Shown: positions 6,179-6,979 of the stretch, one piece after another
Layout: each line of letters starts with the position of its first letter
Numbering within the stretch: the stretch's first letter is position 1
Source: Candidatus Uhrbacteria bacterium RIFOXYB12_FULL_58_10
GTDB lineage: Bacteria; Patescibacteriota; Patescibacteriia; UBA9934; GWF2-40-263
DNA length: 40,168 bases
Direction: 5' to 3'
Assembly (NCBI GenBank): GCA_943359455.1
Contig: CALRHL010000009.1
Span: 1-40,168, forward strand
Program-made: the position numbers and the translations under genes
The notes under the pieces: model-generated
Databases searched by the model: none
Seen by the model: the letters and a program-made list of their open reading frames with translations, nothing else
Told to the model about the DNA's origin: nothing

Positions 6179-6405
6179 ACAGAAGGTTTACCCGGGCACT
6201 TGCTCGGGGCACGTCTGATTGAGGCTGGTCGTATCGACCGGCTGAGGACATGCAATTTGGGGCACTGTGGTTTCGGTGCTTGTCTGCAGTGCGTCTTGAT
6301 GTCGCTACGCGACAGACGCACTGACTGACAGCTATCGGACACCGCGCTATCGCGCGGACGCTTCGCTTGTCCGATAGCCCGCACCTTTCGGGATGACCTG
6401 TCTAC
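6175..6405 (+). ncRNA. Retron-like msr-msd module 1
   Basis: a1 GTAGACAG 6175-6182 / a2 CTGTCTAC 6398-6405; hairpin CCCGGGC-ACTT-GCTCGGG 6191-6208; hairpin GGCTGGTCG-TAT-CGACCGGCT 6223-6243; box GCAATTTGGGG 6252-6262; outer GGTGC/GCACC enclosing hairpins 6287-6323 and 6331-6378; GGGATGAC before a2. Confidence 0.8.
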
Positions 6406-6415
6406 GTTGTTTAGT

Positions 6416-6703
6416 GATTAATCCGTACACGTTAGGTGGTTCGACGTAATGTCGGATCGCAAACTCGATGGTCTGGAAACAGATCAGAAGGATGACCGTT
6501 TCGGTTGTTTGAGAGTCCGCAATTTGGGTGACCGATCATCGCGTGTCCACCACCTGCTCCCTACGCATTCGCTCACTGCGTTCGCTGCTAGGGAGCAGGA
6601 GGTAGCCGTCCGACCGCTCACTCCGTTCGCTTCACAAATCCGTCGCAAGCTAGGATTTGTGACCGAACGGTACACACGCTATGGGATATCGTACGGATTG
6701 GTT
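6416..6703 (+). ncRNA. Retron-like msr-msd module 2
   Basis: a1 AATCCGTAC 6420-6428 / a2 GTACGGATT 6691-6699 (13 bp with wobbles); hairpin GGTTCGAC-GTAAT-GTCGGATC 6438-6458; GGTCTG-GAAA-CAGATC 6470-6485; ATGACCG-TTT-CGGTTGT 6492-6508; box GCAATTTGGG 6519-6528; outer GCGTGT/ACACGC enclosing hairpins 6553-6599 and 6623-6670; GGGATATC 6683-6690. Confidence 0.8.
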
Positions 6704-6707
6704 CGTT

Positions 6708-6979
6708 GTTCGTGCAAGGTACGTCGGGTCATTTGATCCGAACGTGTTCGTCTAGGCCGTCAAACGGCTTTTGGCCGTGAAGCGTCCTGAAAGGCTATCC
6801 GTATCGGATTGCCAAGAACGCGTAATTTGGGAGACCGGGATTGTTCGCTACACCCCCGCCTCCGCGAGTCGCTGTCGCTCCCGCTCCTCGCGGGGGTGAC
6901 AGGGGGTGACAGGGTTCAGCTTCGACGACTCGCTGACCCTGTCACCCCCTGTATCGCTCACCTGGGATATCGCACGAAC
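6708..6979 (+). ncRNA. Retron-like msr-msd module 3
   Basis: a1 GTTCGTGC 6708-6715 / a2 GCACGAAC 6972-6979; hairpin TCGGGTC-ATTT-GATCCGA 6724-6741; AGGCCGT-CAA-ACGGCTT 6754-6770; GGCTATCCG-TAT-CGGATTGCC 6793-6813; box GTAATTTGGG 6822-6831; hairpins 6851-6898 and 6899-6952; GGGATATC 6964-6971. Confidence 0.8.

Follow-up and report, generated by a model that had tools for sequence, protein, structure and literature searches.

Retrons as currently understood consist of one reverse transcriptase (RT), one noncoding RNA (ncRNA), one msDNA, and one effector; a single ncRNA per RT locus is the custom among known retrons rather than a strict criterion. The window analyzed here, a 40,168-nucleotide stretch of DNA from Candidatus Uhrbacteria bacterium RIFOXYB12_FULL_58_10, raises the question of what an RT does when three hairpin-rich modules follow its gene. 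The original prediction held that each module carries twin long hairpins in the msd position, with sequences that are unrelated from module to module, and that three different double-hairpin single-stranded DNAs would be made, possibly to act on different targets or as decoys.

A retron RT followed by three ncRNA modules

The protein encoded immediately upstream of the modules is a retron RT, since its profile matches, its NAxxH, VTG, and YVDD motifs, and its predicted fold agree. It matches RVT_1 in Pfam, the retron St85 model in NCBIfam with a score under the cut-off of that model, and Ec86 in the PDB. Among the retron profiles of PADLOC, RT_XIII scores best (2e-45), followed closely by those of types III, II, VI, and X. 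When the predicted structure of the RT (pLDDT 82) is compared with solved folds, the retron RTs Ec86, Ec67, and Eco7 are among the best matches. Single motifs of the set vary in some relatives.

As Table 1 shows, the three modules follow the RT gene in close succession. Module 1 starts at the stop codon of the RT gene, module 2 lies 12 nt beyond module 1, and module 3 adjoins module 2. The order within each is a1, msr-type hairpins, the unpaired motif AATTTGGG, two msd hairpins, GGGAT, and a2. The a1/a2 stems are 8, 11, and 8 bp long in modules 1, 2, and 3, and the sequences of the three pairs are wholly different, with complementarity kept in each. Modules 1–3 are each structured RNAs adjoining the RT, with a1/a2 ends that enclose msr and msd, as in a retron ncRNA. 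The span given with the original prediction, 6252–6972, does contain the hairpins, but the modules extend further, the a1 of module 1 overlapping the RT stop codon. An Rfam scan of 4800–7400 returned no retron or other family, and one sub-threshold miRNA match.

The twin hairpins were found by a perfect-arm search, by RNA folding, and by folding of the predicted cDNA as DNA, and all six occur where they had been predicted. With inverted repeats defined by arms of at least 9 bp and a loop of at most 60, there are seven strong perfect repeats within 6174–7020 (847 bp), two per module and a seventh (6985–7009) that belongs to the terminator. In 200 dinucleotide shuffles of the array the mean is 0.17 and the maximum 3, and in 45 other tiles of the window the mean is 0.22 and the maximum 1. 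The RNA folds of modules 1, 2, and 3 have z values of −6.9, −5.5, and −8.5, and none of 200 shuffles reaches such stability; the fold of the whole array has a z value of −15.4. The predicted msd cDNAs, folded as DNA, give −8.5, −7.2, and −7.3 in the same order. The folding check thus recovers the twin hairpins in all three modules, each far below its shuffles.

The outer stems fared differently. GCGTGT/ACACGC of module 2 is present in both the RNA and the DNA fold, whereas GGTGC/GCACC, proposed to enclose the hairpins of module 1, is seen in the DNA fold but is missing from the minimum-energy RNA fold. In the second hairpin of module 2, CCGTTCG/CGAACGG lengthens the perfect core past a small internal loop. 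No repeat common to the hairpins of different modules was found, in agreement with the claim that they are unrelated. There is good support for placing the hairpins in the msd position of three retron-like modules.

Table 1. Features of the operon in the window, and second arrays of related operons
Feature	Position	Strand	Evidence or remark
Retron-type RT, 371 aa	5063–6178	+	NARRH, YVDD, VTG motifs; profiles; folds
ncRNA module 1	6175–6405	+	a1 GTAGACAG 6175–6182, a2 CTGTCTAC 6398–6405; fold
AATTTGGG motif	module 1, 6254–6261; module 2, from 6521; module 3, from 6824	+	common to the 3 modules
Module 1 msd hairpin 1	6287–6323	+	perfect arms 10 bp; RNA and DNA folds
Module 1 msd hairpin 2 (branched)	6331–6378	+	perfect arms 11 bp; RNA and DNA folds
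ncRNA module 2	6418–6701	+	a1 TTAATCCGTAC 6418–6428, a2 GTACGGATTGG 6691–6701; fold
Module 2 msd hairpin 1	6553–6599	+	perfect arms 11 bp; RNA and DNA folds
Module 2 msd hairpin 2	6623–6670	+	perfect arms 10 bp at 6632–6662; RNA and DNA folds
ncRNA module 3	6700–6980	+	a1 GTTCGTGC 6708–6715, a2 GCACGAAC 6972–6979; fold
Module 3 msd hairpin 1	6851–6898	+	perfect arms 9 bp; RNA and DNA folds
Module 3 msd hairpin 2	6899–6952	+	perfect arms 17 bp, then bulged T and CAGC/GCTG; RNA and DNA folds
Intrinsic terminator, end of array	6985–7018	+	inverted repeat and terminator call
MoxR/NorQ-like AAA+ ATPase	7080–8198	+	AAA_5, CbbQ_C; conserved neighbor
HExxH (HEASH) domain and C-terminal vWA (MIDAS DVSGSMAG)	8198–10033	+	family alignment, predicted fold; predicted effector/adaptor
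Second array, between AAA+ and vWA genes	L054 4725–6415
Second array, between AAA+ and vWA genes	L055 6160–6790
Second array, between AAA+ and vWA genes	L057 4800–5335
Second array, between AAA+ and vWA genes	L059 2630–3180
Second array, between AAA+ and vWA genes	L068 1085–1835

The partner genes and their surroundings

The two genes downstream of the array encode an AAA+ ATPase and a protein that on its own has no strong Pfam match. In an alignment of the family of the latter, HExxH is invariant and D-R-x-x-D comes after it, and the C terminus is a vWA domain with a DxSGS MIDAS motif; the predicted structure of the window protein (pLDDT 81) best matches the vWA of NorD from NorQ–NorD complexes. 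Because the AAA_5/CbbQ_C ATPase adjoins a MIDAS-bearing vWA protein with a NorD-like predicted fold, the two form a pair of the MoxR/NorQ–NorD type with an added putative metallopeptidase domain. The arrangement is that of a MoxR–vWA couple, in which a MoxR-class AAA+ adjoins a vWA with a MIDAS motif. The PADLOC models for retron effectors and accessories, type XIII accessories included, match neither the AAA+ nor the HExxH/vWA protein, so a role in defense rests on analogy.

Several features flank the operon. A direct repeat of 46 bp (93%) that carries a terminator-like hairpin (TCTCCGCCTAG..GCGGGGATTTT) lies at 3603–3648 and 4383–4428, on either side of a methyltransferase gene (3656–4399). 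Just upstream of the RT, 4500–4900 holds an HTH (transposase-like) frame with its end in one of two hairpin copies with TGACCGTCACT..GACGGTCA, and looks like the remnant of a mobile element. On the 3′ side of the operon, a 544-aa open reading frame (10102–11736) contains a homing-endonuclease-associated HNH repeat (PF18780, 2e-14).

The operon in other genomes

The order RT, units, AAA+, in some cases further units, and HExxH/vWA occurs in 11 genomes of the class, namely the window and ten more, assigned to Candidatus Uhrbacteria, Magasanikbacteria, Falkowbacteria, and Parcubacteria CG1_02_58_44. Strong RT matches (E < 1e-25) are found in 11 of 381 same-class genomes and strong HExxH/vWA matches (E < 1e-100) in the identical 11, neither being seen without the other among the 381; this co-occurrence is partly built in and not independent, because the vWA query alignment came from nine RT-adjacent proteins of those same genomes. 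When placed in a tree together with plasmid RTs and other RTs from Patescibacteria, the array RTs form one clade (support 94/94). A search of species genomes and viral contigs with an RT peptide yielded no close relatives; the vWA alignment found relatives in genomes and no match in viral contigs. Within the family of the window, the RT is found in 5 of 43 genomes and is lacking from four genomes of the same genus, a sporadic presence that fits a defense gene. One further locus, L108 (G619:C4 32682–33140), in a genome of the same taxonomic order, has a 162-aa HExxH/vWA remnant and no strong RT match, and is perhaps a decayed copy.

Repeated units are present in the operons of all the relatives. 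By reading and folding the RT–AAA+ and AAA+–vWA gaps, we count three units in the window, L050, L052, and L060 and two in L051. In operons with units in both gaps, the counts for the first and second gap are 1 + 5 in L054, 3 + 2 in L055, 1 + 2 in L056 and L068, and 8 + 1 in L059. L057 has one unit plus a degraded copy, and L107 (G581), on a broken contig, apparently has at least two. Each operon therefore departs from the form of one ncRNA per RT locus, with two to nine units in the relatives, the counts for L050–L052 and L107 being the least certain. Direct repeats that blastn detects in several of the gaps are consistent with the unit counts. No clear a1/a2 pair was seen in L051 or L052, and none was identified in the broken contig of L107. 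The msr sequences of distant members align too poorly for a joint covariance model. Twin hairpins are the commonest predicted cDNA form in the family, and many units have a single long or branched hairpin.

Some relatives have features of their own. REP-like sequences (CATCCTTCGA..CAGGATGACA; CATCCCGAGCGAAG) occur within or next to units at L055 3805–3950 and L057 6470–6810, and the first unit of L057 looks interrupted. At the C terminus of the RT of the nine-unit locus (L059 6634–8184, minus strand) is an RNase H domain (RVT_3 2e-26, RNase_H 9e-7), which is unusual for a retron RT; retron RTs typically lack RNase H and rely on the host enzyme (PMC8989520). Direct repeats of 59–83 bp near less closely related RTs in the same class (L036 2335–2791 and L049 2336–2477) may be further arrays.

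Constant msr and variable msd

Comparison of units within single loci separates a constant from a variable part. In the three units of L060, the first 115 nt are about 97% identical and the last 16 are identical, and the intervening part is at chance identity. In the second array of L054, units 3 and 4 are identical, and unit 5 shares their msr and ends but carries a different msd. The orthologue in L068 joins the msd of L054 units 3 and 4 to a junction like that of unit 5, which points to exchange between units. Since units of one array in the relatives retain the msr and the a2 end but have an entirely different msd, the three different double-hairpin ssDNAs first proposed for the window are a fair prediction; the twin form itself is not universal among the relatives.

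Related units also differ in ways that keep their structure. Between L054 and L056, L054 and L068, units 1 and 2 of L050, and units 4 and 5 of L059, there are pair-keeping substitutions, with 1 to 10 double-sided changes. Consensus folds of these units have no broken consensus pairs; consensus folding favors such pairs, and the single-sequence structures have a few broken pairs next to the compensated ones.

These comparisons bear on a simpler reading in which the units only raise dosage, tandem duplicates increasing msDNA output while the msd drifts because any hairpin suffices. Plain duplication does happen, as the identical units of L054 attest, and no msd motif is enriched above chance. 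Drift after duplication, however, would not by itself spare the msr in L060 or in L054 unit 5, and replacement of the msd or homogenization of the msr would be needed in addition. Orthologous msd sequences are moreover conserved across species with compensatory changes. We regard dosage as an unlikely explanation.

The predicted cDNAs are long near-perfect hairpins, and could instead be DNA decoys that titrate a DNA-binding protein of host or phage, with the neighboring effector not gated by them. TGACA/TGTCA, present in 17 of the 36 distinct units where 7 would be expected, would suit such a role, but its enrichment (z 3.4) is under the maximum reached by the best k-mer in shuffles (3.9); neither this motif nor CTGTCA exceeds the shuffle maximum. 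Strict linkage with the genes for AAA+ and vWA speaks for a dedicated effector, and we consider decoys somewhat less probable still than dosage.

We also searched for the origin or targets of the hairpins. They do not recur elsewhere in their own genome, and phage records gave nothing significant. One 21-nt arm of hairpin 2 in module 1 matches exactly a ribonucleotide-reductase-like (nrdB-like) gene on a viral contig (L109 1259–1279); searches of viral sequences with three further msd pieces and with an msr control gave no match. The match is probably due to chance, with which it is compatible because the viral collection is so large. The idea that the hairpins are REP-like dispersed repeats or phage-derived spacers inserted into an RNA array, for which this 21-mer and the REP-like stretches of L055 and L057 might speak, is highly improbable in view of these searches. 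A diversity-generating retroelement was considered separately and rejected, as the array sequence has no second copy in the genome.

A proposed multi-template retron

A retron RNA closed by its a1/a2 stem primes reverse transcription at a 2′-OH in the msr, the msd is copied, and the product is a 2′–5′ branched msDNA. The array, its folds, the RT family, the conservation of the operon, and the pattern of constant msr and variable msd are established by the comparisons above. For the steps that follow, from reverse transcription and complex formation through sensing and effector action to defense, we infer a course along retron lines. One RT would serve an array of separate a1–msr–msd–a2 template RNAs, each folded by its own a1/a2 stem, and each msd would be copied into a branched msDNA that usually carries two hairpins and otherwise one. 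With a constant msr and an msd that changes between units, the operon would yield a set of different msDNAs, three in the window, bound to one RT. This set may hold or license a single effector module, composed of a MoxR/NorQ-type AAA+ ring and the HExxH–vWA protein with its NorD-like fold. A phage factor that disturbs any one msDNA would then trigger the ATPase and the vWA/peptidase, which would probably halt or kill the infected cell.

We consider this multi-template retron, in which several msDNAs act for one effector module through to its triggering in phage defense, the probable reading of the locus. Sensors or baits that restrain one AAA+/HExxH–vWA effector would be the most economical function for the msDNAs, and dosage, decoys, and phage spacers are less likely than such a set of sensors. 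A further step would be duplication and exchange of msd cassettes downstream of an unchanging msr, which would build a repertoire of many msDNA sensors or baits for one RT and effector; we put it a little short of an even chance. Its logic would resemble array-based immune memory, but one made of hairpin DNAs.

Relation to known systems

By its RT and ncRNA anatomy the system is a retron, and the array and the effector pair set it apart. With Ec86, Ec67, Eco7/Ec78, Eco8, and the others in PADLOC types I–XIII it shares the RT family and fold, the NAxxH, YxDD, and VTG motifs, the a1/a2-closed structured ncRNA adjoining the RT, and accessory proteins in the operon. Its differences are that several ncRNA units, with msd unrelated to one another, accompany each RT; that the ncRNAs lie 3′ of the RT and, in relatives, also between the accessory genes; and that its AAA+ and HExxH/vWA pair is absent from the PADLOC retron models. 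The RT comes nearest to type XIII by profile rank, but other RT profiles score close and the partner proteins do not match the type XIII accessories.

The adjoining AAA_5/CbbQ_C ATPase and NorD-like vWA protein resemble the MoxR–vWA couples of NorQ–NorD and of ternary conflict systems (PMC7159879), but are joined here to a retron RT and an ncRNA array. The RT partner in ternary conflict systems is a diversity-generating retroelement, and retrons are mentioned there once, incidentally (PMC7159879). TIGR-Tas repeats a constant RNA part with a variable part for one protein (PMC12045711). The present array is like CRISPR and TIGR-Tas in this respect, whereas its variable part is a self-complementary DNA template, an RT is present, and no guide–target match was found. 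A literature search, incomplete in coverage, found no arrayed retron ncRNA and no retron in Patescibacteria/CPR, so that priority is not firm.

If the proposal is correct, an RT serving two to nine templates would make the sequence or shape of the msDNA a swappable specificity element. Sensing by the msd would be testable inside one natural system, since the units differ mainly in the msd, and a natural means of multiplexed ssDNA production would be on offer. Retrons would gain a new effector pair, a MoxR/NorQ-type AAA+ with an HExxH–vWA protein, and a new lineage, the Patescibacteria.
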